64,000 nucleotides of DNA from Ascidia mentula (Eukaryota > Chordata > Ascidiacea > Phlebobranchia > Ascidiidae). Below, piece after piece: positions 13,801 to 57,725 of the stretch (the first letter of the stretch is position 1; the number at the start of each line of letters is the position of its first letter). The stretch spans positions 5,531,001 through 5,595,000 of the forward strand of contig OX387202.1 in the NCBI GenBank assembly GCA_947561715.1, written 5' to 3'. The notes under the pieces were generated by a model. The model saw nothing but the letters and a program-made list of their open reading frames with translations. It was not told where the DNA came from and ran no database searches. The position numbers and the translations under genes were made by a program.

Positions 13801-16800
13801 ATTGGTACTTCTTCATCCCTGAACGAACGATTGTGTTTCCAATGTACAAATGATCCCATGATCATCTCAAGGTCAAGTGTATGTGATGATTTCATAGATT
13901 GCCCTGATATGAGTGATGAATGCAGTTGTAATGGGAAATTCCATGAGCAGTGCAGCCATAACAATAAAGGGTATTTTGTGTAGTTTTGAAAAGACCTTTT
14001 ATTTAATTGATGCAAATAAACTATTAATTTTATTTAGTTCAAAACCACGTTGCAATTGTTTCGACACTAATGTGGTTTGTTACAACACATTGGATCAAGC
14101 CAACATTTCCTGTAACTCAAAAAATGAAATCTGCGACAAGCTTGCTCATTGTCTGGGGAACTCCCCATGTGAGTACAACTGCCCCTCCTACTTCCAGTGT
14201 CCGAATTCAGCTTGTTGGAAACGTTCGACTGTTTGTGATGGCGATCCTTGCAATGACTGTCCAGGTTTCCGACACAGGAATAATGGTCATGGATTCAAAT
14301 GTGTTCGTAATGGCAGGCAATGCAATCTTCCGCAGTTGTTTCTATGGGACGGCATTGCCGATTGTGATGATAAATCCGATTTGTGTTACACCTCAGAGAA
14401 TGGAGATGCTAGGTATTTGTGAACTGTTGTGGTTGGTAAAAAGTACTTTTCAGTTAAGATAAGACAGAATTGACATATGCCATTTGTAGAGACGTTCGAA
14501 GTTCTCAGCCATTTAATCATCGTTCATGTTTTCAATGTAAAAATGACCCCATGATCATCTCAAGGTCAAGTGTGTGTGATGACGTCATCGACTGTCCCGA
14601 TAAAAGTGACGAATGCTTTTGTCAATCTGGGAAAACCAAAGATTGTGGCAAGTTTCATTAGTAAGTGATAAAGTATTAGTTTGTTCTTTGGATTGAAACC
14701 ACTGACATCCAATGCGATACCAGAAATCGATGACTTGCAATAGTGTAAGGTGTGTTAAGTGTCAGTAAATACATTGTTACTGACGCTGACAGGCATGTTT
14801 TATTGCTGAATGCTGCTCTTCTGGCAAACTTTATTTCATTGACGTTTCTCGACGTTTCGGCTGTTATGCAGCATTTCTCCTTGTGGTTGTTTACGTCCCT
14901 TTGGTGTTCTTTCAACCTCGTTTTTAGTGCACGGCCGGTTTCCCCAATGTACACAAGCCGCTGCACCAACCGCAGGTAATGCTGTAGACAACACCCCTCT
15001 TGTCGAGCTTATCATGCATGCGGTCTTTCGGGTGAGATATGAAGGAACGCATGGTAGCGGCCGGCCGTTCAAAATCCTGAATGTTAAAGTCGCCAAGCAG
15101 TCGTTTTAACGTTTCGTAAAGTCCAGAAATATACTATAATACAACTATACCCGCGGGCTGCCCCGCATCACTTCTCCGCATAAAGCTTCGATTATGCCGG
15201 AGAAAGGAACGGGAATAACCGTTAGCAAGAAGCGCTTCATCAACATAACCCACCTCTTGCTCTCGTTCAGCGTCATCAGTTATCAACGATTCGGCACGAG
15301 TACATAATGAGCGTACTACCGCCCTCTTGTGTGAGATCGAATGCACCTAACGAAACGAAAGATACCTGTTGGAATGGGTGGCCTTGCGGTACACCCTTCT
15401 AGAGAGAGTCCCCTCTTCTCTTCGAACCACAACATCTAAAAATGTCAACTCACTCCCTCGCTTGCGCTCCATGGTGAAACCGATGCTCGGTTCAATGGAA
15501 TTGAGATACGAGAGAAGTGACTGTACGTCATCCCGTTGCACGACCACGAATGTGTCGTTCACATAACGCCTCCAAAATCTAGGAGGGTTAACAAACGTTG
15601 CCAACACCCTGTTTTCAACTGATTCCATGACAATGTTCGCGACCACAACGGAAAGTGGGGATCCCATGGCAGTATCGAAAATGTGTTTGTAAAATTTACC
15701 TCTAAAGGTAAGGTAGGTTGCATCCAGGCTGGCAATGCACAATGTCCGTACAGTCACTGCTCTCATATCTCAACTCCATTGAACCGAGCATCGGGTTCAC
15801 CATTACTACGTTTCCATGGCCACATTCGTACATAGCCCGAAAACATGGCCCGATCATATACTAGGCCCGAACGAACAGGCGCAAAACGGCTTGCGTTTCC
15901 ATGTCCGTTTCGCGACCGTTAAGACCTGTGCATATTGTGGAACATATAACTGTTGAAGTCCTGATAAACCACACAAAACTTTGTGATTTTATTTATTGAA
16001 TTGTAACAAAAACATAATGCACAAATTCATTCACAGAGCATTTGTATGATGAGAAGTTTCTTCAAATACAACTTGAATTCTGAAGTTTCAAGCCAGTAGC
16101 TACATGACAAAAAAGAATTAAATTGCAAATAATTAGTCATAAATGGTGAAGCTGTGACAACCTGCTGTACAGTGAGTCTGTCACAATCCGGTTCATAGCA
16201 TTTTTGCAAGGTGGCTTTTGTCTCCCTGCAAGGATAATATTTTCAATAAATTGTTACTGGTCTAATTCTTATCACCACACGACTGCACAGTTACAACGTC
16301 AACGAAACCGAAATCCGTCGGGCCGAGTATACTACGCCTCAACTCGGTCAGGCAACCCCTTCTAGATCGCCCGACCGATCGGCAGTTGAGGCGCAACAAA
16401 GCGCCTTGTTTTGCTACGTCACTTCCGTTTTTCGGCCTTCGGGCCGAGTACTGCGCCTGAAAAGTGGCCATGGAAACGTAGTACATGAAGCGCGAGCAAA
16501 GAGTTGAGTTGTCATTTTTAGTTGTTCTGGTTCAGGGGACTCTCTCTACAAGGGTGTACCGCAAGCCCATCCATTCCAACTGGTATCTTTCGTTTCGTTC
16601 GGCGCATTCGATCGCACACAAGAGGGCGGTAGTAGGCTCATTATGTACTCGTGCCGAATCGTTGATCTAATGACGCTGAACGAGAACAAGAGGTGGGTTA
16701 TGTTTATGAAGCGCTTCTTGCTAACGGTTATTCCCGTTACTTTCTCCGGCTTAATCGAAGCTTATGCGGAAAAGTGATGAGGGGCAGCTCTTTGTCATCA

Positions 16801-26855: not shown

Positions 26856-29800
26856 CTAGCACGCCAGTGCGGTGCGTAGAGCTTCAAACAACAGTTGCTC
26901 ATCGTCTTCTTCCGCGTTGAAAGCCAGGAAGTGATGGGGACACGTCACTTTCCTTCTCTGCCAGAACAATGGAAGTGGAATGGTTGATGCGCCGTCCGCA
27001 TAACTGAGCACAACCACCTTTCTTTGTCCTTGCGAACATTCAGCTTCTTCAATGGCCGTTATTGCAAATCTTAAAATTAAATAATTGCAGTTTGGTTTGC
27101 TATTGACGATTTATTGAAACAACATGCATTTCGCTATTAGCGTATCAACTTCGGATCACTATTAACAGACTTGTCCATAATTATGATAACAATACATATT
27201 ACTGTTGTTAGGCAAACAACGGAATTTGATTATTGCATATTTACAAAACCATCAGTTATGTTCCTAAGGTGTATGATTGAATTGATGATGACATGAATTA
27301 TTGACGGAACGTTTAAATAAATAAAATATGTTTTTTAACGCAATTATACGTCTGCTAATTTTTTTTGCCACGCATGATGCAAAAAGTAACCTCTGCAAAC
27401 CGAACTTACCGACACGTTCCTGTAGCCAGAAAATCGCGGGAGAGCAAGAGAAGAGTTTTTCGACAATTTCCGATATTCTCCGCAATCTGGCGAACCCGAC
27501 CCACTCCACACGACACATCTCTACCCAACAGTTTGAAATGGAATCGAGGAGTTTTTCTGAGCATGTTCGGAAGCAGTTGATGGTCGACCCAAACCCCAAC
27601 CCCGTCGTTGTAAGTATCGAATATGAGGAAAATATCGGAGTCTTCTGGATCGAAGTTTCGCTGTTGTGGTATTCTTTCTCGTGATATCCAGGTGGCGCGC
27701 AATTCGCTGTGAATTCCGCGGAAAATCGCTTCTTTGAATCGCTTGCTGTTAACCACCAGCCCGACAACGAGGAAAGTAAAAACAGCCGACGAAAATGCAA
27801 CACAGTAATTTGTCACAAGTAACAGATCGCAAGAGGTGATGAAGCTTTCAGTCATTGGTGAAAGGCCTGAATAAGCAACAGGGGATTGACAAGATACACA
27901 CCCGCCATAATAATCATCAATCAACTGTGAACATTTGGGATATAATCCAGGCGTAGTAGCTTTACATTTTGTTGCATACCAGTAATATAGAATGTCCCAC
28001 CTTCCACAAGAGCATTCGAACACATTAAATCTGATATCCAAGTACTGGAGTCCGGATAGAACATTCATGGGTAATACCAGCGTCACGAGGCGATTGTTAC
28101 TAAAATCTAAATACTTTAAATGAGTGGATACGTCAAAATATCCAGGTCGAATATATGTGATTTTGTTTGATGAGATTGTGAAAGTTTCCAGTCCTGGCAA
28201 CCAATGAAGAAGGTCATCAGTAAGGCGTGAAATTATATTATGATCCAACTTGAGCTCAACTAACGCTTCGAGATATCTAATTTCCTGTATCGGAACCTCA
28301 ACAAGATTGTTGTGAGTCACATCTAAGCGAGTGACCCCTTCCGCTCCTTGAAAGAAGTTGTTCGGAAACTGTGAAATTTTGCAGCCGCGGAGAATGAGCT
28401 TTTTTAGTCCTGTGAACATCTTCAGGTTTTTATGCTTTGTATACGCAGTGTTGATGTCGTTTTCAGCCAAAGAAAGTTGATCGATTTTGGCCTTTTTGGA
28501 CGTTTCTAACGAGTTTGCCCGAAAAATAAATCCAAAAGCACTGGTAGATGAACTTTTCATTGTCAGTGAAATGGGCAAATCCTTTTGCAAGTTAAAGGCG
28601 AATGATATGTTGAAGATTTCCCCGAGAGCTTTGCTCATGTCTATTACTTGCAATCTTCGCAATTTCATAAATGCACCAGGATCCACGGCGGATAATAAAT
28701 TGCCTGAGAGAATTAATTGAACCAAATTCTGCATATTGTTGAAATCAAAAGTACTGATGTCATTTATTTGGTTGTTGGATAAATTTAGAATAGATACATT
28801 GGGAAGAAATAGTCCAATTGTTTTTCCTAAGTCTTGTATTACGTTACCTGCATAGTCGTTTATTGCAACAGGGTTATCTTTGTGGAGATCTTTGTGGTGC
28901 GTTTTACTACTTATTGCAAGGGAAAATAACGTTGGTGTTTGAATGACTTCTTCACCAATAACGTTGTGGAAAACGTTCACGTAATCTCCTATATTATTTC
29001 CGTTCATAAGAATAGACTTCAGTCCCTGCAAGCCTTTCCACGTGCCAGGATGAACGTTTTCAACACCGCTGTATGCCAAGCATATTTCCATAAGATGTGG
29101 CAGTGATCGCAATGATTTAAAACTTTCACTGTCCAAACTTGTGTACTTAACTGGAACAATGCCAAATTCTTTCTGATAATTTTCCCTGCTTGGACCAAGG
29201 TAGAGTCTTTCTAGTGAAGTTAAATTCTTGTAAACATTACCAAGGCGGATTTTTTTATAGATGACTCCATGGGTATGCTTCTGACATTTCAAATTGTAGT
29301 AGAAATAGAGGGTGCGCAGATTAGATAGATACATTAGAAAACGTGGCTCCTCAATGTATGCATGCAGGCAGTTCATACTTAAATCCAAAACTTTTAGTTT
29401 TCTGTTATTTCGGAACAAGTTGTCTGGAATATACTCAATTAAATTAGAGTGCAAAAACAAGTACTGCAAATTGGTAAGTGGGACAAACACTTCTGATTCC
29501 AACTTTAGATGTGATAAAAAGTTCAAATAATTAAGTCTCAAGTGCACTAAAGACCCAACATTATTGAAATCTCCATTTCTTAAAGTTGCTATGGGGTTAT
29601 AGCCTAAATCCAGATAAAAAAGATTTGAAGAAAGCAAATGCCTGGGAATTTGATTCCATGCATTACCATTTAAATCTAAATACTGTGTGGAATTTGGAAG
29701 ACCTTTAAAGGAAAAATTGCCTGAAGGGCAATATTCTAAATAAACAAGCTTTAAGCAGTTTCCATCGGCCCTAAATGCTTTTAGATTTGGCAAATTTGTC

Positions 29801-30339
29801 GCAAAGTCAAATGACAACTCTCCAAGGCCAACAAATGATACGTCAAGATACTGCAAAGACTTGGACAAACGACGTGGAAATTCCAGCAGAAAGTTGTAAC
29901 TTATGTCTAAGAATTTTAAGTTTAAGTAGTCATCTAATTCAATTGTCAATGCTTTAGTGCATATCGGGGCTCGAAAGAATAACAAATTTCTTAAATGACT
30001 GTTACTTTTCACACAGTTTCCTTTCAAAAAAACCACCAATAAATGGTGAAACTGTTCAAGGTCTTTTGATTCTATTCTTTTTATTACATTCCAATTTAAA
30101 TCAAGAATTTCAATGTCCAAATTAAGATTTTTAGGCACAACCTGAAGACCCTTCATGCTGCAGTTAATGAAAAGGTAGCTCCGTTCAATTAATTCTGACT
30201 TTAGTGGGAGCTTTGTGTATTCCGACAAATAATTTCCTTTCATTTCTCGAATTCGATCACATGGGTTCGAAGCATCGCATCCACCAAAACTATTAAACCA
30301 AATAAGAACAAGTATACAGCTCCACAAGTGCGCAAGCAT
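26856..30339 (-). CDS. Toll-like receptor (LRR-TM-TIR)
   Basis: Two exons, 30339-27410 and 27069-26856, joined phase 2 (CG|GTAAGT ... TTAAG|A), giving 1,047 residues. The ATG at 30339 begins a signal peptide (MLAHLWSCILVLIWF). Leucine-rich repeats fill residues about 45-765, then an LRRCT with CSC..W (about 775-830), one membrane span (about 838-863) and a cytoplasmic TIR domain (about 897-1040). TIR box 1 is FLIFDTYND, box 2 is LLGRDVSCG and box 3 is PLPLFW (W1013). Box 2 normally reads RD..PG; here the BB-loop proline is Cys944. Role by family: pattern-recognition receptor signalling through TIR adaptors such as MyD88, at the cell surface or in endosomes. The intron falls inside the TIR domain. 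The large first exon is intact, without stops. The ligand cannot be told from sequence. Confidence 0.93.
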
Positions 30340-31976
30340 ATTTTCTTCCGATTACAATGTTAGCTTGAAAATATTTCTGCTGGCAATATAAGGATATTAG
30401 CTCCTTCAACTTAAAACATTTTGTCACAACTAATGTAAACAATAAAAAATGGCTTCTGATCTGACGTCATTTAGACATCACAATGACTTGAAGAATAGGG
30501 TTTGCCTCGGGGAATTCGAATCTCCAGTGTAATTCATATTTGCATAAGGAATAATTGAGGTGTTGTTGTAGATTCTTTGAAGTGCTTGATTTAGACCATT
30601 ATTTTAATTTCGATTCATATGAGTAGTTGAAGTGAAGCGTGATCACGTTTGCAGTATAGGCTGCACGATTTGCCTGAGTTCAGTCGAGGTTGCCAATAAA
30701 ACTATTCAAATAAACATGCAAATACGTCACGAAAAAGGTTAGCTGGTGGGTGTTTTTATCAGAAGAAAGATTTACGACAGTGTTTGATTTTTGTGAACGT
30801 TTTAAGTAATGATGAAAAGGCTACTGTCAAACACAAAATCAATCATTTATACATTATACATCATCAACAATTGCACGACGAGTTCGTAGCATCACAAAGT
30901 ACATGCAAAATCTGGCACTGTTAACATAAGGCCACACACACACAATAGTGCTTGTCTATTACACAACCCTTTTACTTTCTGTGTCTCTCTTGGTATCTTA
31001 AAATGCCTCTAATAATCTTTTCAAGTTTGATTTTATGCAAAGGGCATGTGCGCTTATATGGAAAACAACTGAAATGGTCACCGTGGTGAAAAGAAACTAT
31101 GAACTGTTTTGTCACAGACTCGCTTACAAACATTTCAATGTTGTCAAATACTGCAGATGCACAACACTGAATCGACCTGTTAATGAACTGATGCTCTTAA
31201 TCCGGTCCGATTCGCCCAACAAGGAGCCACACACTGTATAAGGGAAAACGTTCCGCTTCATGGACATTATCGAAGAGCCATGTCACTGCAGCGCACCGGA
31301 TCATTGTTGCTGCGGTGCGACTTTCTTTGATCGCCCTTTTTTCGTTTTACGCGTCCCTTGTCTTTTGTTTTGCTTCATTAATTTTGTATTATGATTTCTA
31401 CAACTTCTCATTTTAAGGGCAACGTCAGCATATAATCGCGACCTTTTCATTTCATTTTATTTCATTTTATTTCTTAAAACGCGTACAAAAGATAATCACA
31501 TAAGGCATTTTTGTTATCAACTGTAGGTGACGTGTGTTTATTTATTCGTTACGTTATTTTCTTTGCGTTTTATTCTCATTTTTCAGTTTCCACATTTCTC
31601 AAGAATACAAACAATTTATGAAGAGTGATTTGTGCGTTTAGAAACAGACGTTGATTAAAAGCAGTGAATTTTTATTTTTCTTCTGTGGCAGGGGGCCTTC
31701 TGGTTGTGTTGCGCTGCCACCGCAACACCTGATAACCACTGAAATAAGTCATCAGTGAGACGTTAAACCAAATTATGATCCAACTTCAGCTAAACTAAGC
31801 CGGGGAGATTTTTATTGCTTATATCGGAACCTCAATACAATGAATTTTCTTCTAGTTGTCGACCTATGAGGTAAATGGTGGTATCATTTTCTTTAATGAG
31901 GGAATTCAGTGATGCATTCTAATCGTATTCGTTGTTGACGTTAAATTGCTGACGTTGCCTTTCGTTGTGTGAATAA
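30340..31976. other. TLR 5' flank; non-coding with short microsatellite
   Basis: Presumed promoter region of the TLR gene on the minus strand, without a recognisable TATA box in a convincing position. A short (tttcatttta)n run lies at about 31447-31475. No gene recognised. Confidence 0.4.
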
Positions 31977-36883: not shown

Positions 36884-39800
36884 CTACTCACTGTTAATGC
36901 GTTGCATCACCTTTAAATGGACATGCCTATCTTCCATAGCAACGTTTCCTCCACTTCTATAACAACGTGTCTGTCTCTTTATGTCGGACAGAAACCTCAT
37001 TCTGATAACGTCATCCATGACGCAGTAAATGAGGAACAGAACGAATCCTTGCATTCCGTTCACCAAGCTGTGAATGTAAGTGAAAACCTCGTTCGAGATT
37101 TCGTTTCCGATTCCTGAAACAGATTAAGATTTTTTTTTGGCAGAGGGTGAGCATTTCATAAGACGGATTCAATTAGAGCAAAGTTAACGATAAAGTATAT
37201 TTATCGTAACTTACCAGTGAAGAATGCCAAGCTCCAGGTTCCGCCGAGCATCAAGAAGAGGAAAATGAACGTCTTTGCTGCTCTCTTTGCATCTTGTAGA
37301 TCAACGTCGTCTCCTCTGTTCCGCATCCTTTGGGAGGTTAATGCTATGTATGATGTTTTGGCGATAATGAGGAGGTTAATGACGAGGACGAGAGCAAGAG
37401 GAGTGATGACGGAAATGTAGAAAACCGGAGTGTTGGGAGCCAACCAGCATCTGTCGTACTTGGGAATTGGTGTAGTGTTGTTTTGATAATGGTGGCACGC
37501 CTCGTAATAAGGCTGTGGTTTCATGTAGACGCCGAAGTGGAATCCCACGGGTGCGGATATTCCCACAATCAAGACGGGAAGAAGCCATCCAAAGGTCATA
37601 AAGTACTTGAGTCGATCTTTTGAATCCCAGGTTTGGAAGTCTATTGGATTGGAGGTAGCCATGAAAAGTCGTATTCCCTCGATCAGAAACCACATTCCTG
37701 TAGCAAAGAAAAACCTGTGCAAATATTATGAACATTGTTACCGTAAAATATTCACCTGAACACATCAAGAAGAAATGGTTGATCACTGTAAAAGCCATGC
37801 AAGACTGATCATGCGAGACCATAATATCGTGCAATAAGTTGACGACATGAAGAAACAGAAGTGATAACGTCAAACATATCTGGATGTAAATTCTGTCTCC
37901 GCCCTCATTGAAACAGAGTAGGATGATTGCGGTGAGCAGGAGGAAGAAGACGGATGTTGATTCTGTCACGTATGTTGTGATCTAGAAGAAGAAATTTGAA
38001 TATATTTCACGTTTTGGACAGAACTGTATGCAAGCGCCATGACATATTCATAAAAAAATGTATGTGTACTTACCTTAACACCTTGGGGAATGGCGATGGA
38101 TTTTACCGCCAGGAGGACGGAGAAAACAGTGAGGTGGTTGCAACTGCACGTCACGTGACCAGGGTTTGCTTCGGTGGTACAGCCCTCATCCGAATATAAA
38201 GACGCTGCTCCGTCGAAGAATGTGCATCTGGGCGAAAGTTGGGAGATTTTCTGGTTGCTTCCGTTTTTCTTCATGTTTTCAATTTCGTCGCAGGCTGATT
38301 GTGTTGACGTGGTAGGAAGGTCGAATCTCACAGTGCCTTGCAGTTGATTGTTATGTTTTACTTTCCCAATAGGTAAAAGTGTAGGAATTTCGTTCACATT
38401 CAAACCCACAATAACAAAATGGCTCGTATTATTGTTGGCTATGTAACGTGTTGTGACGAGGGAGCCAACTTGGTCAGTCGGACCATCGACCTTCACATCC
38501 TCTGGAATCATAAACTGGAGAACTGAAAATGCGACTTGGTTTGCTCCGTTTGTTTCCAACATTAAGTCAATGCGAGTTGAACCAAGCAAGATATTGGCAG
38601 TGAGTTGAGTCTGAGGACCATTCAATGTTGTATGATTGAAGTATAATTGGATATCACCATTGTGAAAAGTCATTTTGATTGTAGTTTTTGAGCTTCGGGT
38701 GATATTCTCGATAAGCTGGTCCATATGTATCAAATCTGCCGGGCTCGCCAGTTTTATGTTCATCACATTAATTGGCAAACCTGCGCGTATGTGTTTTGAG
38801 TTTTCATAAAATGTTGTTTAATTTTGATCATTTCTAAACAAAGAAAACAAGTCTTTATTTCGAATATTACATGCTATACAAGAAAACAAGTAGGCAAAAC
38901 TTCTTATTGTGTATTTTCATGGACTTAAGCTTACTGTGAACAAGTTCATTCCAGATGTTGTTTGTAGTTAGCGTGGTCGTCAGTTGTTTGGTTGTTGGGG
39001 TGGTTAAAATATTTTGTTCGTTGGTGCTTTGCGATGCTGGCGTTTGTTTTTCTGGATTGGTGGATATCGTTGCCGCTTGTTGAATGGTAGTAAAGAATTT
39101 TGTTGGTTGTAAGGGTTTTGAATCTTCTGGAATTTTATAATTACAGATCAGTTGTTACATTTTTGTTTGTGCCAGTGTTTCTAGCATAAATGTTTATTTA
39201 ATTTCCCTTTTTACTTAATCTTAGGAATTTGTATGGCAGGTATTCACTTACTGCAGTATATTGACAGATTAAGGCAGGTGTTTGTTTCTGTAATTAATTT
39301 TTCTGCATTTCCACCTGGATCACATTTTTTTATGAATGGTTCTGCATACATTTTGATTCAAACAAAGTATTGCAACGAGGTGTGCAAAAAGTGCCTTCAC
39401 CAAATTTTTGTTATTACGATTTTAAGAAACTCACTTACATTTTTCGTATCCTACTATTGTGAATTCAAAATTTAAGCCAGCAACTGATGGTGTTGGTCCT
39501 GCACAAAACTCATGTTGGAAAAACGAAAATCTCACACAAAGCAAATCTAGTTGTTCAACATAAAAATATACAAAAAAATATAGGGTATGACACATTCCAC
39601 CTGGTTGAAGGAATTGAATCTTGGCATTAATAGATGACGAAACGATTGACGTCATACAACAATCAGATGCGTTGCAGTTTTTTTCTGAATATTAATGTAA
39701 TGACCTTTGCAAGTTTTTGTTTTATAAGTGTAAAAACTGCAAAACAGGAAAATTATTTATCTCACTACACAGTAATTAAACAATTTATTTATTTTGTGGA

Positions 39801-41894: not shown

Positions 41895-43070
41895 TAAAAA
41901 TGTACTGCTCTTCTGGCATATACTTACTGTATTTTACGACGTTTCGTCTGCCATGCGGCGAGACTTCATCAGGTATAACGCAACAATTGAATCACACTGA
42001 AACACGCAGGGGCACAAAAGAAAAGGAAAAAAAGGGGAACGTTGACACCGCTTGTAAACTCACGTGCTGGAGGCAGAGGCACCAAACATTGCGGAAGACA
42101 CAACCATCACAACAAATTATTGTAAACTGCCGAAAAGAAAACACATTGTTATTGACGCAACCACTATTTTTGGGGATGTGCAACGAGTCAAGAAATGACC
42201 GCTTGGCGTGGTCCAGCTCCATTTCCAGGACTTGGGCTCTATCGAAGTCAACTTTATGTCGCAATGTTACCGCATGATTGGCCAACGCAGTCTTGCTGGC
42301 ATCTTTCGATGCGACATCACGGCGATGCTCTTTCTGTCGCGTTTTGAAAGCCCTCCCGGTTTCGCCGTTGTATACACCACTGCAATCCTTGCATGGTATC
42401 GAATAGACCACCCCCTTTGGTTCGAAAGCCTCCGTAGCAATGGGTCATGAAATTAGATTGCCAAGCGTTGTATGAGGCTTCGTGTAAACTTTTATGCCGT
42501 AATCCGACAATGTTTCGGTAAGGCCAGGTACGTAGGGAATTACAACTGTTCCGCTAGTGGGCGTTTCATGCTTCTGGGTTAATGCCGTTCTCGCGCTTAA
42601 CATCCAGGCAGGATATTGTTTGTTCGCAGCGCATTTTTTACGACACTAATCTCTTTTGCTTGGTCTTCTAGCCTTGAAATGTGGGTCTTGGCTCTATCCA
42701 TAAGCGATCTTACAACCGCCCTTTTATGTTCTATCGGGTGTGCCGAAAGAAACGAAAGGTAGCGATTCGTGTGTGTTGGTTTTCTATGAACACGAGTATT
42801 GATAACTCCATCCTTGCCCCGGTAAACTTCTACATCCAAGAAGGGTATTTTGCCACCACTCTCCTCTTCCAACGTAAACTTGATGGAATCCTCGATGCTG
42901 TTAATGTAGGTCAGGAAGTCTTGCACTTTTGCTGTATCAAGAATGGTAAACGTATCATCCACATATCGTCTCCAGTAACGCGGAGGATGCGCAAAAGTGG
43001 TAAAGGCTCTCTCTTCGATAGTTTCCATAACAATATTAGCCACTACAACGGATATCCGGGTTAGCAGGTT
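41895..43070 (-). mobile_element. Penelope-like element, 5'-truncated, YVDD intact
   Basis: Minus strand. RT palm from 43043 (MANIVMETIEER, WRRYVDDTFTIL, FLDVEVY, THTNRYLSF), 148 codons, with the catalytic YVDD box intact. A GIY-YIG-type endonuclease follows at 42411-41992 (VYSIPCKDCSG, NGETGR; the usual YIG Tyr-Ile is changed to YN). Linker at about 42597-42412 with a stop. The 5' end stops abruptly at about 43070 inside the RT, so thumb, finger and N-terminal regions are missing: a typical 5' truncation. The 3' tail (41972-41895) carries a hammerhead-like core and ends agaagagcagta. It has landed where the GAIN/7TM exons of the dead adhesion-GPCR paralogue would be expected. Confidence 0.85.
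41905..41985 (-). ncRNA. Hammerhead-ribozyme-like motif, PLE tail
   Basis: On the minus strand CTGATGA (41972-41966) is followed by a stem II with gtct/agac and gcc/ggc pairs around gcat, then GAAA (41945-41942). Upstream tatac can pair with gtata about 20 bases after GAAA as stem I. Stem III would be only about two pairs (ac/gt) with a large loop, and the cleavage triplet is not clear. The conserved boxes and stem II are strong; activity is doubtful. Confidence 0.6.
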
Positions 43071-43265
43071 ATATACACTTCACCCTATTTTCCAATCCTG
43101 CGCAGATTGTTCCATTATTTCAGGTTTCGGTGGTAAGAAAGGATTTGAAGCTTTCATAACAATGCTTGTGTCAAAATTGTACCATTGTCTTAAGATATCT
43201 TGTGTGGTCGATTGTTGGTATTACACATGCAAAACCACGTTTAAGTCAGTTACTATGTTTACAAA

Positions 43266-47997: not shown

Positions 47998-50900
47998 TCA
48001 CCAATTAATTAAAAACGAGAGCAGACTGGCTGTAAAAGAAACTACCAACACCAAGACACTACGTGGGCGCAATTGACTTATGGCGTCGCACTTGTAACTT
48101 CCATCGTTGTTGAAACATTGAGCGTCACCGCAGGGATATGGTGTTTGATTGCATTCGTTTACGTCTGTTTCAAGTGAGAATAAATGCGTTGTTTTTAGAA
48201 TGAAATCCCTGAACTTAACATAATGTGAAACTACACATATTTTGACGTAGTACCTCCACACGTAGGCGATAGAGAGGACCAAACGGTTGTTCGACCAGCA
48301 GCAGTGCAAGTGCTTGTACCCGACCCATTTAATGCAAAACCGTTTGGACAGTTGAATGTAATTTGTTCTCCAACATTGTAAACATTCTTGTCCGGTGTTA
48401 AGGATGCTGATTGGACATTCGGTTTGTTGCATGTTGTACCTTAGAGCAATGTACTCCAGATAAATGTAAATGTGTCATGACAAATATGCAGAATTCCTTC
48501 AGTATCAGTACTTTGTCTCTTACTAAAGTATTGAAAACAAAATAGCAAACCGACAAACGTCGCTCTTTGCATTTCGTGAATGTTATGTGAAAACATGACA
48601 TCATCTCACAAAAGCTATATTGTTCGATGTTTCACTTGTTATCCGGCCAACTTTCCTCGAGATACTAAGAAATTTTGCGCCAGATGAGCTTTTTTGAGTT
48701 GAATTAACGTTATGCCAGACAACGTCAGCAACAAGAATATTATATTCAGAAAAAAACATGTTTCAAAAACCTATGCATATGGGTGGTGCCAGAGGATTCC
48801 AATCTCCGGTGGCTAAACAAGTCATTGTTGATGTTCCGTTCAACAGAAACCCACTTTTGCAAGTGAAATATATTTGCTCACCAAGATTGTAAATAATCTT
48901 GTTTGGTGTCACGGATGCTGAAGGGACAATCGGTCTTTCGCATATCACTGTAGAAAACAGAGATATATAATTTGTGATCGATCGCATCTCACTTAAATGA
49001 TAAGCAAACAAAAATGTACCAAGATTATTGTTTGTTAATTTATGAGTTCACCTTGACAAGTTGGTGGGTTAGGGATCCAAGTTCCTTTATTTTCAGTTGC
49101 TGTGCAAGTACTTGCTGATGTTCCGTTCGGAGGGAACCCACTTTCACAAGTGAATGATATTTGAACACCAACAGCATAAACATCAAAGTCAGGTATTATC
49201 GCACCAAACTTCACAGTTGGTTTGCCGCATGTTCTTACTAAAAAATGCACATTTGTTTGATAAAAATTGTCCATTTTAATAAATTTCATTGTGTCATACA
49301 TACACACAAATTCAAACTGCACTTACCATCTGGTTCTGGAAAGCTCAATCCAGTCACTGCAAAGTTACAAAATAATTGTATTTGAAACAAGCCATCTAAG
49401 TGCTTGGTTTTGTAGAATACAACTTCCAACTGTCGCGTGTTTTCATATCTATTTTGTAAAAGCATACAACGAGGTTGTATCGCTCACCGTACTCAATCCA
49501 TCCCGATACTTCCGTCACTTTAACGAAGAAACTTGGGCTTCTTCTACACCTGAAGTCACTAAAGCTCTTTACCCCATACTGATACCACGTGTCATTGCCG
49601 ACGTCACAGATTAAAGGACCTCCATCATCAACCTTTACATGAAACAAGAAATTATATGAAGCATTTTATCAGTTAATAAGTCTCATCGTATGGTTGCCAT
49701 TGGGTCTCTAACATCTACTTTGTCTCATTGGTAAAAGAGTCACATTTATAAATAAAATATGCTTCAAATCAGTGTTTCCAATATTTTTTACAAGGGGTTT
49801 CTTACAGTGCTAACATTATGCGTTTGTGAGTTGTTAGAATTGTGCTCTATTAACGGACTGGCGAAGATTATGATAATCTTATTACTCTGGTTATGTTATT
49901 ACTCCGGTAACTGCAGGTAACAAGACATATGCGTAGTTTCAAAATACGATTCAGTTAACTTACTGAACACGTAGCTTTGAATAATGAGCCAGCACACATA
50001 ATAGTGGAAGGCATTGTTTTTGAAGAACCGAAAAACTTGCGGTATTCGTCGTCACAGTAAGATCGACTCTTGACATTTAATGTGGTTTGCTGAAGATCAT
50101 CAGGTTTGCTGCTGTCTGAAATCACGATTTGATAAATCTGATTTCAGAGCCAGTATCTAAGATCGTTAAAAAGCTTACCATACGTTCTCCCCCACCCTGC
50201 AAAGTGGCATTTTGTCTCGGACGGTACATCATAGTTTGGTCCTGGTGGAAGGCAAATAGGCCTCACGACGTCGTTGAATTTAATGCTGATCGTTAATTTG
50301 AGTAAAGCCAAGTCATATCCTCTCAGCTGATCACTGTAAAAGTCATATATCGTTTGTTTGTGAGTGCGTAACATCATACTTTCATGGGAAGTCTCAGTAT
50401 TTCGCAACGTGAAAGCTTCGGTTACGACTCATTGTAGCCGTGAGGCTTACATAGGTTTAGTCGTTGAATGTTGGCTGACCAAATATTATTGGTTTGTATG
50501 TGATGGTCGTAACTGTAGCTGTATGTATTGTATGTATTGGTTTGTATATACATCAAAGTGCAACATTGCATCAGTTCTTCATGACGCAAATACTGCAGTT
50601 ATGGTGTAAAACATAGGTTCCCAACCGAGGATACCCATGCCAATGTGGGAACAAGATTGCATTCCAAGGGGTACTCAGTTGCTTGGTTAGCTGATATAGC
50701 AATTCCTTTTTACTTTGGTAGTGAACTGTGCAGTATTTTTTAATATTATGTACTTACGATTATTTTCTGATTTAACGAGAAAAAGGGATAGATTGCATGA
50801 TTTCATTCTTAACAAAACATCAAAGTGGTCCGGCGAATGTTTAGCAAAGGAAGTGGTTCAAAGCACTAAAATACTTTGTAAACCCAAATGTTTAGAATAT

Positions 50901-53900
50901 AAACCTCACCTAAATTTGGGATGTTCGTGTTGACTTTCGACAGCAATTTTTTGGGTGGTTGATGTCACTGAACTGTTGCGAAGATTAGTTCCAACTAAAA
51001 CAACGAGGCTAAAAAATATTTCTCAAAACTATTCTGGGTAATTCTATAAACAGCACCAGCTTGAATGCTTTTTACCTTCCAGATCCACCATACAGTTGGT
51101 CTGCACTTGTGAGAATCCATCGATCAGACAAAATGCTTCCTCCCCCCAATGTAAACTGTAGAAACGCTTGTTCCTTAATAACCATAGCCATCCATGGCCA
51201 TGAACCGTTAGGAGCTGTTGATCCTCCGTAAATTCTGGAATTCTTTTCAAATAACATGCAATCCAGTTGATTAAAACATTTAAGCCATATAAGGCATCTA
51301 AAAATGTTTCTTTGACCAACAAAACATAAATAATTACTGCTAACAAAATTAACTTACAGTCCCATGAAATCCTGATCTTTTTCCACAAGTTGAGAAGTTT
51401 CCTGTAAAAGATTGATTGCTTACTGATAACATTTTGCTGAATCAGTTTAGTCATTGAAGTTACCACAGCTGTGAAAATATGTTAAGAAAATACAACAAGC
51501 AAACTTATAACGATACTTTACGAAAAGAAAAATTATTGAAAAGAAAATGCCAAGCAGACAACTGTGGCTCTTTACATTTATTAAATATTGTGTTAAAACA
51601 TGGTATCACCTAACAAAAACTATATTGTTTGACGCTTCATTCATTATTCAACCAACTTTCCTCGAAATACTAAGAAGTTTTGCGCCAGATGAGCTTTTTG
51701 AGTTGAGTTAACGTTATGCCAGACAACGTCAGCAACAAATCAAAGATTATATTCAGTAAAAAACATGTTTCAAAAACCTATGCATGTTGGCGGTGTCAGA
51801 GGATTCCAATCTCCGGTGGCTGAACAAGTCATTGTTGACATTCCGTTCAACAGAAACCCTCTTTTGCAAGTGACAGATATTTGCTCACCAACATGGTAAA
51901 TATTCTTGTTTGGTGACACGGATGCTGAAGGGACAATCGGTTTTTCGCATGTCACTGTAGAAAACAAGGGTTTATTATTGATGATTGGTCGTGTTACGCT
52001 TCTTAAAATAAACGCTTTCCTTGGTTCTCAGGACGCTGCATTCACGGCTAACCACAAGCCTGTTCCAGCACAACCGTTTAGATAAAATCTTGTTCATAAA
52101 ACTATAAAAATTGCACCGACGAATCACAATCTCCCCAAAAACAGTCTGCCCTCGATTTTTCTTAGCGTCTCGTGTTCGTCCGGTTTTATCTTTTCTCTCG
52201 CCAGTCATTGGCCCAACCGTGTCACGTAAGAGGAAGGGAGCTAGCGCTACGAAATCAAATCAACGTGCGGTGACTGGTGCGTTCGAGACACTTAAATAAT
52301 AAATACAAAAATATAAATCAATACAAAACAATTAAATGAACAGGTGGAAGGTGAAATAACAAAAGGTGAAAAAGAACGTGGCGTAAAAGAATACGTGATT
52401 TAACGAAAGCGTGAAACTTGGAAATGAAACGCAAACAAGTGGGCAAATTATTTTGCGCTACACACTCCCCCCTCTATGTCGAGGCACTCCCGTGCAGACT
52501 TATGGGGAATAGCGCTGAGTGGGACGGCGATTTACGCGAAGGCGACTGGCAATTCCGTTGTCACCGCGAGAGTTCGGTGCCTGCGTATTTTCTTCGTTTT
52601 CGGTGATATTGGTCCAGGTCACCACTTGTGTCGTGGGGTCTCCCGTAGGTGGCAATGTCCGGACTTCCTCTTCCACGGTTGGTCGCCCCTCCGTCTTGTC
52701 CGCCCCTTCACCTTGAATTTGTTTGAGGCGATTATAATGGACGACTTTTCGGTGTCCTTCTTCGTCCTCGATCTCATACGTCACGGCTGACTTGATGTCC
52801 ACCACTTTGTACGGGCCTTTGAACGGAAGGTGGAATTTCCTCGCCATCCCTGGCTTCACCGCGGGGTCTGTTAAGAGAACAAAATCACCCACATTCAGCG
52901 GTTTGCCCCTCTTATGTCGGTCGTACTGCGACGCCATGCGCCGTCTTTGTTTCCGCAACGTTTCACGGGCCACCTCTTCAGCTAACTGGAGCCTAGCGCG
53001 TAGCCCTTCCAGTGGTTCCGGGAATGGATCGCGCTGGGCGGGAGCACCGAATAAATCTGCTGGGAGTCGTAGAGCGTGGCCATTTAACAAATAATGTGGT
53101 GACACACCTGTACTTTCATGGACACTCGCATTATAGGCGGCGACCACCGCCGACAGCGCCTCATCCCAGCACCGTTCATCGCGCTGTACGTAATTCCGTA
53201 TCATGGAGAGTATTGTTCGGTTGTTGCGTTCGCACGCACCGTTTCCTTGAGGATGATACGCGGTCGTCTGGGTCTTTCGGTCCTCCAACCGGGCCAGAAG
53301 TGTCTTTCTTCGATCTTCGAACAGGTTTTTGCCATCCCGAGATGGCCACCGCCAAGTGGTGCGTCGTGCAAAACGGACATAATCGTTTCTCTGGTGGTCT
53401 GTGGAGTGATAAGGCGGTACACACACGCGCCCGGTTGATGTAAGGAGTCACTCGTTTGATACAACAAGTTGTTTTGAACGATTAACCGCCCGAATTGCCC
53501 CCAAAGGTGTTTGGTCATCGTCGAGGCAGACCTAACAGTTCGGTAAGGTGGTCTCTTGCCAAGGTTTAACCACCTAAAAGCCGGGGAAATTTCGGGGTCG
53601 TCGTGTTGGGCTTTACTTATTTCCTCGTATGGCAGTCCAATGGAGCGACGCAAGTCCAAGGAATAAACTTCTCCTCTACCGTTGCGACGACCGTGTGTGC
53701 CGTAAGAAGTGTTGGCCCGGAATGGCAGTGTCGGTCTTTGCTGGGCTGTGTTCACCACCTGCGATGTGGGTTGTTGACTTGGTCTAAAAGGTATGGATTT
53801 GAACGTCCTATCGCCACCGCGTGGTCGACAACAATCTCTTGCCATATGGCCACGTACACCACAGTTGTAGCAAACACTTGCGGACTTACTTGGGCGCAAC

Positions 53901-56900
53901 CTCTGTGGTGCGGGTCGTTGGAGACCGTCGAGACCACGGCGCATGTCATCGAGCTCGTTGCGAAAGCTATCAATAGATCGCTGCACATTCGAATTAAGCT
54001 CGACCAAAGTGTTTTTGAGTTCGATTAGCTCGGGATTTCGGGTTAAACTTATTGATGTAACGGGAAGAGAGCCGTGTGACACATCGGACTCGACGACCAT
54101 TTTAGCCCAAACGCTGAAATTCCGCTGTGGGCACTTTTGTCTAAATGAGTCCACTAGTTGGCGGTCCTTGAGACCCCGCAATAAAGCGAGAAGCATCACC
54201 TCATTTTTAATGGCGGCCTCGGCTGCCCTCGGGTATGCACGGGCAGCTAAAGCTTCTATGGCATACACAAAAGTTCTACCGTCTTTTTGTTGCCCTTGGA
54301 TTCGGTTGACCAACTGGCTTCTCAGCGCGCATTGGCCAGTGGGGTTTACTCCGACTGCTTTGGCTTTAGTAACTATCTCTTCAAATTGCATTTCGTACAG
54401 ATTATCGGCCCCGTTTTGAATATCCCATATAAAGTCTTTGTCAACATTTGTTAAGAAAAGGTGCTTCTTAACCTCTTCGGTAGCTTTTATGCTGGCGCAA
54501 TAAGAATTAAAAACTTGTAAAAATGAGGTAAAATTGTCTCCGTTTCTGAAATGCGGGGGAGTCATGCTGATGTTAAAAGCCATCTTCCGGATCAAGAAAA
54601 ACGAACCTTAGTCCTTTCTCGTGTGACAGGAACTCTTCTTCTGTGGTTGCAGCGTCCTGGCGTGCTCGCCAATTTCGTGTTACGCTTCTTAAAATAAACG
54701 CTTTCCTTGGTTCTCAGGACGCTGCATTCACGGCTAACCACAAGCCTGTTCCAGCACAACCGTTTAGATAAAATCTTGTTCATAAAACTATAAAAATTGC
54801 ACCGACGAATCACAATCTCCCCAAAAACAGTCTGCCCTCGATTTTTCTTAGCGTCTCGTGTTCGTCCGGTTTTATCTTTTCTCTCGCCAGTCATTGGCCC
54901 AACCGTGTCACGTGAGAGGAAGGGAGCTAGCGCTACGATATCAAATCAACGTGCGGTGACTGGTGCGTTCGAGACACTTAAATAATAAATACAAAAATAT
55001 AAATCAATACAAAACATTTAAATGAACAGGTGGAAGGTGAAATAACAAAAGGTGAAAAAGAACGTGGCGTAAAAGAATACGTGATTTAACGAAAGCGTGA
55101 AACTTGGAAATGAAACGCAAACAAGTGGGCAAATTATTTTGCGCTACAGTCGCACCAAATTAAATGATAAGCTGACAAAAATGTACCAAGATTATTGTTT
55201 ACTAAATTATAGTGTTCACCTTGACAAGTTGGTGGGTTAGGGATCCAAGTCCCTTTGTTTTCAGTTGCTATGCAAGTACTTGCTGATGTTCCGTTTAGTG
55301 CGAACCCACTCTCACAAGTGAATGATATTTGAACGCCAACAGCATAAACATCAAAATCAGGTGCTACAGCACCAAACTTCACAGTTGGTTTGCCGCATGT
55401 TCTTACTATAAAATTGATTTTGTTAAACAAATCTTGTCCATTTTAGCAAATTTTATTGTGTCATACATACACACACACAACTTCAAACTGCACTTACCAT
55501 CTGGTTCTGCAAAGCTCAATCCAGTCACTGCAAAGTTATAAAATAATTGTATTTGACAAGTTATCTATAAGTGCTTGGTTTTGTAGGATACAACTTTAAA
55601 CTGTTTAAAATTCGCGGTTTTTCGTATATATTTTGTGGAGGCATACAACGTGGTTGCATCGCTAACCGTTTTCAATCCATCCCGATACTTCCGTCACTTT
55701 AACGAAAAAGCTTGGGCCACTTCCACAGCTGCTGTCACTGAAGCTCCTTACGCCAAATTGATACCACGTGTCATTGCCGACGTCACAGATTAAAGGACCT
55801 CCATCATCAACCTTTACATGAATCAATAAAGTATATAAAGCATGTTATCAATGATCCAGCCTTGTCGTATGGTTGCCCATACCTCACTAAAATCTACTTC
55901 GTCTCATTGGTAAAAGGGCCACGTAGTTTCAAAATATGATTCACTTAACTTACTGAACACGTGTCTTTCAATATTGAGTCAGCACACATAACAGTGGAAG
56001 GCATTGTGTTGGAGGAACCGATAAACGTGCGGTATTTGTAGTCACAGTAAGAATGACTCTTGATGTTTAATGTGGTTTGCTGAAGATCATCAGGTTTGCT
56101 GCTATCTGAAATCACGATTTGATAAATCTGATCTGATTTCAGATTTAGCATCTAAGATCGTTAAAAAACTTACTATGCGTTCTCCCCCATCCTGCAAAGT
56201 GGCATTTTGTCCCGGACGGAACATCGTAGTTTGGCCCAGGTGGAAGGCAAATAGGCCTCACGACGTCGTTGAATGTAATGCTGGTCTTTAATTTGAGTAA
56301 AGCCAAGTCATACCCAGTCAGCTGACCACTAAAAAAGTCATTTATATTTAGTTGTGAGTGACGTAAATCATTCGTTGGAAGTCTCTGTTTTTCGTAACGC
56401 GAAAGCTTCGGTTACGGCTCATCGCAACCGTGATGCTCACTTGGGTCTAGTCGTTGAATGTTGGCTGACCAAATGTCATTGTTGTTATGTGAGAGTCGTA
56501 AACCGTAGCTGTATATGTTGTATGTATTGGTTAACATAGTTTTCAAAGTGCAGCAGTGCATCAGTTATTCTTGATGTAAATGCTGGAGTTAAGGATTATG
56601 CTGTGGAAGAGCGGTTCCTAACCGGGGGTACTCATACCACTGTGATGAACGAGATTACATTCCAAAGGGTCCGGCGAATGTTTAAACAAAATAAAAAGGT
56701 GCAGACCACAAGAATACTTTGTAACCCCAAAAGGTTAAGAAAATGAACCTCACCTAAATTTGGGATGTTTGTGTTGACTTTCGACAGGAATTTTTTTGGC
56801 GGTTGATGTCGCTGAACTGTTGCGAAGATAAGTTCCAACCAAGACAATGAGGCTGAAAATATTTCTCAAAACTATTCTGGTAAATTCGATAAATAGCACC

Positions 56901-57725
56901 AACTTGAATGTTCTTTACCTTCCAGATCCACGATCAAGTTGCTCTGCACTTGTGAGAATCCATCGATCAGACAAAATGCTTCCTCCACCCAATGTAAAAT
57001 GTAGAAACGCTTGCTCCTTTATAACCAGAGCCATCCATGGCCATGAACCGTTAGGTGCTGTTGATCCTCCGTAAATTCTGGAACTCTGACAAAAGTAACA
57101 TGCAATCCTGTTGAATTAAACATTTAAGTTTCATAAGGCATGTTAAAAGTTTTTCTGTTGACGAACAAAAACATGCATCAAAAAATAAATAATATATTTT
57201 AACAAAATTTACTTACAATTGCAAGAAATCCTGATGTTTTTCCACAAGTTGAGTAGCTAACTGCAAAAGATTAATCATTTTTTTTCAACTTTTTCTTTTT
57301 CAGTTTAGTCATTGAACTTGCTACTGAAGTTAAAGCGGTGAAAATAGGTTGTGAAAGTATCACAATCCGGCTTACAACATTTCTTTATAAATGAAATATT
57401 AGCCTGTCTAAAAGCGACTTACTCGTGGTTTGAATTGAATCAGATAAGGAACATAAAAAAAAATCTAACTAAAACAGACCCTGGAAATATTCTTACCCTG
57501 GCAATGAGGTGTACTGTTGTCCCATCCAATATCTGTGCATTGAGATTTATTTTCCCCTACAAGTTGGTAACCAGCATTGCACGAATAGGAAACAGTTTCG
57601 TTGATGGAGTATTCCGTATTGTTCGGAATCACGGTCATATATTGTGGAACCACAGGCCGGGAACAATTGTTTGCTGCAGCTTCGTTGATAATCAACAATG
57701 CAACTACCAATATCTTATGAGTCAT
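47998..57725 (-). CDS. Anchored sushi / dual pseudo-serine-protease protein
   Basis: Nineteen exons: 57725-57497, 57260-57217, 57085-56919, 56328-56174, 56105-55954, 55811-55667, 55527-55498, 55405-55220, 51954-51778, 51401-51358, 51242-51076, 50333-50179, 50115-49964, 49632-49488, 49356-49327, 49237-49052, 48947-48771, 48439-48254, 48164-47998. They total 2,694 nt = 898 codons. Order: signal peptide (MTHKILVVALLII); sushi 1; trypsin-fold A; sushi 2-3; trypsin-fold B; sushi 4-6; EGF (DVNECN); hydrophobic C-terminus ending at the stop, so GPI anchor or tail anchor. The unit linker/protease (five exons)/small exon/two sushi is duplicated, with equal exon lengths. Both protease domains keep R|IYGG, the linker Cys and DLALLKL (Asp102) but have lost His57 (WILTSAEQ in A, WILTSADQ in B), Cys42/Cys58 and Ser195 (VDDGGP). 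Neither can be a serine protease. Haptoglobin also pairs sushi with a dead protease fold. Probably extracellular binding. Two separate genes remain possible. Confidence 0.85.
51992..52462 (-). repeat. LTR (3' LTR of the gypsy element)
   Basis: 471 bp, near-identical to 54678-55148. Differences seen include cgta/cgtg near 52227, aaat/atat near 52251 and caatta/cattta near 52329. Confidence 0.92.
52500..53300 (-). CDS. Gypsy integrase C-terminal half (fragment)
   Basis: The open frame on the minus strand starts within YHPQGNGACERNNRT (containing the last acidic residue of the DDE triad), then the C-terminal integrase region with VGDFVLLTDP and LPFKGPYKV (GPF/Y-type module). The two catalytic Asp residues are absent because of the deletion. 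It is out of frame with the upstream Gag ORF, so it is unlikely to be expressed as a fusion without frameshifting. The first part of the longer ORF (53426-53300) is a shadow of the Gag frame. Confidence 0.75.
   Translation of the reverse strand, partial: LLARLEDRKTQTTAYHPQGNGACERNNRTILSMIRNYVQRDERCWDEALSAVVAAYNASVHESTGVSPHYLLNGHALRLPADLFGAPAQRDPFPEPLEGLRARLQLAEEVARETLRKQRRRMASQYDRHKRGKPLNVGDFVLLTDPAVKPGMARKFHLPFKGPYKVVDIKSAVTYEIEDEEGHRKVVHYNRLKQIQGEGADKTEGRPTVEEEVRTLPPTGDPTTQVVTWTNITENEENTQAPNSRGDNGIASRLRVNRRPTQRYSP
53201..54595 (-). CDS. Gypsy Gag joined to integrase N-terminal piece
   Basis: 464-codon ORF. Residues 1 to about 240 are Gag capsid-like; a CCHC zinc knuckle (CYNCGVRGHMARDC) follows at about 240-255, then a basic Pro/Gln-rich region. 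After about residue 310 the sequence turns directly into the region ahead of the integrase zinc finger (GGGHLGMAKT...HFWPG). The zinc finger is cut before its Cys pair; from there the frame runs through integrase C-terminal DNA in the wrong frame to a stop. The fusion arose by internal deletion. The Gag part may still be made and could package the element RNA. Confidence 0.8.
   Translation of the reverse strand: MIRKMAFNISMTPPHFRNGDNFTSFLQVFNSYCASIKATEEVKKHLFLTNVDKDFIWDIQNGADNLYEMQFEEIVTKAKAVGVNPTGQCALRSQLVNRIQGQQKDGRTFVYAIEALAARAYPRAAEAAIKNEVMLLALLRGLKDRQLVDSFRQKCPQRNFSVWAKMVVESDVSHGSLPVTSISLTRNPELIELKNTLVELNSNVQRSIDSFRNELDDMRRGLDGLQRPAPQRLRPSKSASVCYNCGVRGHMARDCCRPRGGDRTFKSIPFRPSQQPTSQVVNTAQQRPTLPFRANTSYGTHGRRNGRGEVYSLDLRRSIGLPYEEISKAQHDDPEISPAFRWLNLGKRPPYRTVRSASTMTKHLWGQFGRLIVQNNLLYQTSDSLHQPGACVYRLITPQTTRETIMSVLHDAPLGGGHLGMAKTCSKIEERHFWPGWRTERPRRPRIILKETVRANATTEQYSP
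54678..55148 (-). repeat. LTR (5' LTR of the gypsy element)
   Basis: 471 bp; partner of 51992-52462. Equal length and almost identical sequence imply recent insertion. Confidence 0.92.

Follow-up and report, generated by a model that had tools for sequence, protein, structure and literature searches.

Two catalytically dead trypsin-fold domains in one predicted surface-protein gene of the ascidian Ascidia mentula

Introduction

How did a single gene come to carry two trypsin-fold domains that both lack catalytic residues, and what may such domains do? This question is raised by a gene of Ascidia mentula that lies on the minus strand of a 64,000-nucleotide stretch of DNA (assembly GCA_947561715.1, contig OX387202.1, forward-strand positions 5,531,001 to 5,595,000), referred to below as the window, with positions counted from its first letter. 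An initial annotation of this DNA took the two domains, here called A and B, to have lost the same residues and read this as the sign of a new binding role rather than of random decay. The mitochondrial code agrees with a tunicate source: in a 451-bp piece of COX1 on contig C79 (19,461 bp), the open frame has nine AGR codons, seven of which, when translated as glycine in the tunicate manner, coincide with conserved glycines of COX1, and TGA is read as Trp. Judged from the genomic sequence, the gene looks intact and is predicted to encode a protein, secreted or held at the surface, in which six sushi modules are combined with two catalytically dead trypsin-fold domains. It appears to be a well-kept member of a lineage-specific family of dead proteases, and its striking parts are the family-wide pattern together with the doubled dead domain. 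The argument from identical losses in A and B fails.

Gene structure and domain composition

The gene is open from an ATG at 57725 to a TGA ending at 47998 and is predicted to consist of 21 exons and 963 codons plus the stop, with no internal stops and GT-AG boundaries at 20 of 20 introns (Table 1). Its product would comprise a signal peptide, one sushi module, dead trypsin domain A, two sushi modules, dead trypsin domain B, three sushi modules, a truncated EGF module and a hydrophobic tail resembling that of glycosylphosphatidylinositol (GPI)-anchored proteins. Exon 1 provides the sole signal-peptide-like start within 58.7-57.6 kb. In the initial annotation 19 exons joined in phase to 898 codons; the joining in phase holds, and the counts do not, because exons 4A and 4B (99 nt each, in phase) had been missed, their omission giving exactly this number (2892-198 = 2694 nt). 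With exon 4 included, the best Pfam Trypsin match spans positions 1-220 of the 220 in the model, and the exon is also found in the three closest paralogs.

Pfam profiles matched the 963-residue translation with Trypsin in two stretches (E 3.6e-83), with Sushi in six (E 3.3e-61) and, partially, with EGF_CA (23.2 bits, under its cut-off of 27). The annotated order of sushi, dead protease, two sushi, dead protease, three sushi, EGF and anchor is thus borne out, with the EGF module truncated and the anchor predicted. The EGF-like module of exon 12 has four cysteines ahead of the tail and lacks the last pair. Hydrophobic windows occur at residues 4-19 and 943-962 of 963, and no charged residue follows the second. 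The protein thus combines a signal peptide with a C-terminal hydrophobic tail that has no cytoplasmic end, as expected of GPI-anchored proteins, and this tail is probably a GPI-type anchor signal. An exon with a four-cysteine truncated EGF module and a hydrophobic tail also ends other genes (C71:1497488-1497565 and 1501152-1501229, C70 and C71 being the designations used here for the sequences on which relatives of this gene cluster), and it therefore looks like a shared anchor cassette.

Both trypsin-fold domains carry the substitutions first read from the letters. In chymotrypsin numbering, domain A has Glu57, Gln58, Gly42, Asp102, Val193, Asp194 and Asp195 with Arg15|Ile16 kept, and domain B has Asp57 and otherwise the same residues. 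The motif WILTSAEQ in A and WILTSADQ in B gives His57 replaced by Glu or Asp, respectively, and Cys58 by Gln in both; LGGGSIL gives Cys42 replaced by Gly; CSVDDGGP gives Gly193 replaced by Val and Ser195 by Asp with Asp194 kept; and Asp102 and the zymogen-type cleavage site are retained in GYDLAL and SRIYGG. The acidic replacements at 57 and 195, the joint absence of Cys42 and Cys58 and the retention of the zymogen-type site, Asp102 and most disulfide cysteines, all previously proposed, are confirmed by motifs and alignment for both domains. Cysteines for the 1-122, 136-201, 168-182 and 191-220 bonds are present in A and B, so that, with the pairing taken from chymotrypsin numbering, four other disulfides can presumably form in each domain. 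With a trypsin fold recognized by profile and both catalytic His57 and Ser195 replaced, the two domains have the features of S1A pseudoproteases and are predicted from their residues to be proteolytically inactive. Val193 would spoil the oxyanion hole as well.

The reading as one gene, already proposed in the initial annotation, withstands scrutiny on the strength of the open frame, the joining intron and the lack of a second signal peptide. The 5' part of the intron that joins the two halves is about 84% identical to intron 10B/11 over 249 bp and its 3' part about 68% identical to intron 1/2A over 143 bp, a hybrid structure that would be expected from the joining of two units within introns. 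No signal-peptide-like start for a separate second gene was detected in 52050-51243. The 3.2-kb gap behind the doubt about a second gene is accounted for by a long terminal repeat (LTR) retroelement, the two 474-bp ends of which are 99.4% identical, pointing to a young insertion; internally it holds only zinc knuckle and integrase pieces. That two genes, or an assembly artefact, have been read as one is barely credible. Repeats such as A and B are prone to mis-joining in assemblies and the gene model rests on genomic sequence, but 67 of 385 residues differ between A and B, more than a duplicated contig end would show, and, besides the hybrid intron and the single signal peptide, other loci also have two protease domains before one tail exon.

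A family of dead proteases in the genome

A genome search with domain A, in which 150 of 269 candidates were scored, gave matches clustered on C70 and C71. The loci examined hold 27 protease domains, which is a lower bound for the family (at least 27); C71:1128297, a degenerate exon-7-like piece with a stop and no exon 3, was left out. Residue 195 is Gly in 12 of these domains, Asp in five, Trp in five, Ser in three and His in two, and His57 and Ser195 occur together in two (C71:1121527 and C71:1155566). Asp102 is present in 27 of 27, a basic residue at 15 (Arg or Lys) followed by Ile, Val or Leu at 16 in 26, and Asp194 in 26. The sole domain without Asp194 (C71:1504013-1505800, with Ser195 kept, Asn57 and Gln194) is also without Arg15-Ile16, which suggests that the others keep both for a reason. 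After exclusion of the near-identical copies C71:1698702 and C71:1705048, variability was counted in 25 domains over 162 well-filled columns. Column 57, with nine states, lies at the 97th percentile and column 195, with five, at the 82nd, while R15, I16, D102 and D194 lie at the 16th-36th percentile. In the same 25 domains Cys42 and Cys58 are both kept in 13 and both absent in 12, with no mixed case.

The acidic replacement marks this gene's subfamily only, since other branches have Gln, Ser, Gly, Ile, Asn, Arg or Asp at 57 and Gly, Trp or His at 195. Within the five closest domains (A, B and those of the three closest paralogs) Asp195 is constant and position 57 is always acidic, being Asp in B and C70:5731384 and Glu in the other three, so that position 57 changed at least twice on the tree and yet stayed acidic. 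This tree of 27 domains has several weak nodes (31-66) and gaps where exon 4 was not found at a locus. The window is not alone in having a two-domain gene, as four further loci on C71 (1504-1509k, 1649-1655k, 1677-1684k and 1698-1707k) have two dead protease domains followed by one EGF/tail exon. All four have a signal-peptide-like start ahead of the first domain, and two of them have, between the domains, a 26-residue hydrophobic frame that no sushi exon directly follows. The segments at 1649-1651k and 1698-1700k are identical across matched exons. An intact His57/Asp102/Ser195 triad is found at C71:1155566-1157939 within a cluster of seven dead neighbours. Its re-activation is not claimed, since the approximately unbiased (AU) test does not reject a tree in which it branches outside these neighbours (p 0.288, codons 57 and 195 excluded).

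Protein searches for relatives in other species matched 3, 29 and 89 proteins, whose identity to the query was 35% at most; in the searches giving 29 and 89, the 7,989 candidates sharing most words were scored, so that these results are not proof of absence. A literature search on tunicate or ascidian dead proteases with sushi domains did not yield a description of this family among the matches listed, and HrSMLP1 (PMC6916515), to judge from its abstract, is unrelated.

Origin of the two-domain gene

The three closest paralogs (C70:5605724-5601951, C70:5730724-5734608 and C71:1638098-~1634.6 kb) each contain a single protease domain; their modules otherwise follow one another as in the window gene, from the signal through sushi, dead protease and three sushi to the truncated EGF and the hydrophobic tail. 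All three carry S195D, an acid at 57, C42G and C58Q, and the losses therefore predate the two-domain gene. These substitutions in single-protease paralogs rule out a parallel loss in A and B, which the initial annotation had implied in stating that both lost the same residues. The first of them (C70:5605724-5601951) is open across 12 exons and 578 residues. The gene in the window thus appears to have arisen when two related units were joined, both from a paralog family the usual form of which has one dead protease domain.

Domains A and B are identical at 318 of 385 residues and 1047 of 1155 exon bases. In the introns, a sister relation of A and B is rejected (AU p 4.6e-5), B grouping with the C71 paralog (C71:1637504) and A with the two paralogs on C70, and a simple recent tandem copy of one unit is therefore unsupported. 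The exons pull the other way and prefer A and B as sisters, with the alternative not rejected (p 0.465). Shared sites number 11 for A+B versus 10 for A+P2/B+P4 (P denoting paralogs) in exons, and 9 versus 28 in introns. Most probably, A and B derive from different, already dead paralog lineages, with exon exchange between them; the same pattern may also stem from an older duplication of A/B followed by later exchange.

Selective constraint

The ratio of nonsynonymous (dN) to synonymous (dS) substitution rates is 0.26-0.49 in all 10 pairs among the five closest protease domains. Between A and B it is 0.52 over the whole unit (bootstrap 0.35-0.78) and 0.49 over the protease exons, with a synonymous distance of 0.18, an intron distance of 0.19 and a dN of 0.09. 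These values point to moderate purifying constraint rather than free decay. Of the earlier proposal of a new binding role instead of random decay, the part concerning selection is thereby upheld; the binding role is a matter of interpretation, and the acids said to mark it are not family-wide.

Features of the window

The features of the gene are collected in Table 1. Elsewhere in the window, on the same strand, one uninterrupted frame of 981 codons, in which leucine-rich repeats are numerous, lies at 27409-30351, and pieces of an adhesion-type G-protein-coupled receptor, with a GPS motif and a secretin-family seven-transmembrane region, lie at 37204-38817. Frames at 14679-15769 and 42000-43079, also on the minus strand, resemble, by their motifs, reverse transcriptase and a GIY-YIG-type end; Pfam gave no match on 42600-43079.

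Table 1. Exons and other features of the two-domain gene (window positions)
Feature	Position	Strand	Basis
Exon 1: start codon, signal peptide (MTHKILVVALLIINEAAANN), sushi 1	57497..57725	-	Pfam and sequence reading
Exons 2A-7A: dead trypsin domain A	55667..57260	-	Pfam and residue alignment
Exons 2A, 3A, 4A	57260-57217, 57085-56919, 56852-56754	-	
Exons 5A, 6A, 7A	56328-56174, 56105-55954, 55811-55667	-	
Exon 8A: 10-residue linker VTGLSFAEPD	55498..55527	-	GT-AG; counterpart in B and three paralogs
Exon 9A: sushi 2	55220..55405	-	Pfam
LTR retroelement in intron 9A/10A, between sushi 2 and 3, outside the protein	51989..55148	- (same as gene)	
Exon 10A: sushi 3	51778..51954	-	Pfam
Hybrid joining intron, between exons 10A and 2B	51402..51777	-	Intron similarity
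Exons 2B-7B: dead trypsin domain B	49488..51401	-	Pfam and residue alignment
Exons 2B, 3B, 4B	51401-51358, 51242-51076, 51008-50910	-	
Exons 5B, 6B, 7B	50333-50179, 50115-49964, 49632-49488	-	
Exon 8B: linker VTGLSFPEPD	49327..49356	-	
Exon 9B: sushi 4	49052..49237	-	Pfam
Exon 10B: sushi 5	48771..48947	-	Pfam
Exon 11: sushi 6	48254..48439	-	Pfam
Exon 12: EGF_CA-like module, hydrophobic tail, stop codon	47998..48164	-	

Possible function of the dead domains

The reading that we favour, with a somewhat better than even chance of being correct, is that of a cell-surface pseudoprotease gene made by joining related units, in which the zymogen switch has been kept and the former active-site face binds a partner. 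In this model, a GPI-type anchor would hold the protein on the cell surface, where the dead domains would act as recognition modules. An upstream trypsin-like protease would cut at Arg15|Ile16, after which the new N-terminus would dock on Asp194 as in HGF, and the face thus ordered would bind the partner. Loss of the Cys42-Cys58 bond would loosen the loop that held His57, and in this subfamily the pocket would become an all-carboxylate site (Glu/Asp57, Asp102, Asp195). The doubled domain would represent a two-headed form of higher avidity. The setting could be blood-cell or body-surface recognition, which is the least supported step and a guess from tunicate biology. Binding by the dead domains is suggested by the lost triad, the kept activation switch, the strong variability at 57 and the anchored, module-rich architecture. 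Pseudoproteases have been grouped as ligands, cofactors and scaffolds, and the Ile16-Asp194 switch has been described (available part of PMC13194640).

Several observations weigh against this reading. A variable column 57 is equally expected under relaxed constraint, R15|I16 and D194 may have been kept for structural reasons, and a low dN/dS also fits maintenance of the fold alone. One loss on a stem of the tree explains the joint absence of Cys42 and Cys58, so that the lack of mixed cases does not amount to 25 independent ones. The paralog at C70:5730724-5734608 has a 26-nt deletion and a frameshift in a sushi exon (C70:5733390-5733549), and near C70:5600 kb (C70:5600898-5600453) the last two exons occur in an additional copy, with a stop in the EGF module. 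Finally, the acceptor of exon 3B at 51242 on the minus strand (ttatttgaaaag) has almost no pyrimidine tract, the acceptor in copy A being tacttttgtcag, and a transcript without domain B is thus possible. These two damaged relatives and the weak acceptor, together with the young retroelement in an intron and a dN/dS of about half rather than very low, are what a decaying duplicate would show, on its way to a pseudogene and with its frame open only through youth. We give this explanation very little weight, as 963 codons are open across 20 GT-AG introns, the synonymous distance between A and B about equals that of their introns while dN is half as large, and the dN/dS bootstrap lies entirely below 1.

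Two other functions have to be weighed against surface binding. As a cofactor or decoy in a protease cascade, the protein would use its dead domains to hold a protease, inhibitor or substrate, as protein Z or the arthropod serine protease homologs do, and so tune complement or clotting-like reactions. The combination of sushi modules and trypsin fold is indeed that of complement proteases, protein Z also has Asp at 195, and pseudoprotease cofactors have been described (PMC13194640, in part). We consider this unlikely, however, because the EGF/hydrophobic tail suggests a surface protein and because a single conserved protease partner would disfavour a column 57 more variable than nearly all others. 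Improbable, too, is a haptoglobin-like or metal-binding scavenger, in which the acidic pocket or the dead-protease surface would capture a ligand or metal ion that the anchored protein clears or stores. Haptoglobin shows the same losses (C42, H57, C58 and S195) behind a sushi domain, all five closest domains combine an acid at 57 with Asp195, and MamO offers the case of a pseudoprotease of trypsin fold that has been turned to metal binding and has a residue other than glycine at 193 (PMC4794232, in part). A cation site in the pocket is accordingly possible by analogy. Nevertheless, identity to haptoglobin is 27% and the long loop that precedes Cys182 in haptoglobin has no counterpart here, the metal site of MamO is not its catalytic site, the acids are not retained in other family branches, and ligand binding here is putative.

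An extension of the favoured surface-binding reading, which we put forward tentatively and regard as doubtful, is that the family supplies a set of anchored pseudoprotease receptors for recognition, which diversify at former catalytic positions (nine states at 57, five at 195) while keeping the cleavage switch. In the subfamily of the present gene the triad would have been rebuilt as the all-carboxylate site, possibly for a cation or metal, and the gene itself would place two heads on one anchor. Whatever its role, the family forms a graded series in one genome, from a full triad, through loss of His57 and Ser195 with Cys42-Cys58 kept, to loss of the disulfide too and, finally, the joining of two dead domains. 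This allows the order in which an enzyme is dismantled, and what is kept, to be asked inside one family. In vertebrates, dead proteases (haptoglobin, HGF, protein Z) mostly arose as isolated inventions. Should the family serve in recognition, a new receptor type would be added to the sister group of vertebrates.

Comparison with known systems

Haptoglobin (PDB 9fnm, 4x0l) likewise has a sushi domain before a dead trypsin-fold domain in which Cys42, His57, Cys58 and Ser195 are replaced and Asp102 is kept. It differs in sharing 27% identity over the protease domain, in having Lys57 and Ala195 instead of acids, in its long CD163 loop (loop 3), where the domain studied here has an 11-residue gap, and in being soluble, with one protease domain and without EGF module or anchor. 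Among proteins of solved structure, domain A matches chymotrypsinogen (E 2.4e-32) and alpha-tryptase (E 3e-32) best, and haptoglobin is not among the best 60 of 525 matches. The protease part of haptoglobin is encoded in one exon, as against six here. Internal duplication also gave rise to the Hp2 form of haptoglobin (PMC3678498, in part). Haptoglobin is treated here as a probable parallel, not as kin.

HGF and MSP resemble the present domains in having a dead trypsin-fold domain that keeps the activation site and Asp194, with H57Q and S195Y in HGF, which, unlike A and B, keeps Cys42-Cys58. HGF also has kringles, and in the window protein no kringle was matched by Pfam at E 0.001. Protein Z shares Asp at 195 and differs by Lys57 and a kept Cys58, as read from a weak second alignment stretch; Gla and EGF modules lie in front of its protease domain. 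The sushi/EGF/tail architecture is not known from the inactivated protease paralogs of the scabies mite. These paralogs, compared by description only, parallel the ascidian family as a lineage-specific expansion of dead S1 proteases, and HGF and MSP are described as ligand pseudoproteases active after cleavage (both from the available part of PMC13194640).

The polyproteases of the ovochymase/polyserase type, including the ascidian HrOvochymase, also have several trypsin-fold domains per chain, at least one of them without a triad (PMC9265791, PMC5683605). They differ in their modules, which are CUB or others, and in having one or more active domains. The present protein has more than one trypsin-fold domain per chain and no intact triad, His57 and Ser195 being absent from both A and B, and its modules are sushi and EGF. 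The sushi-rich surface protein vCRL1 of Ciona, also compared by description only, is polymorphic and thought to act in the blood system, and no protease domain is mentioned for it in the part of PMC9265791 that was available. By analogy, the best reading of the window protein is that it works like haptoglobin or HGF and is probably a member of neither family.

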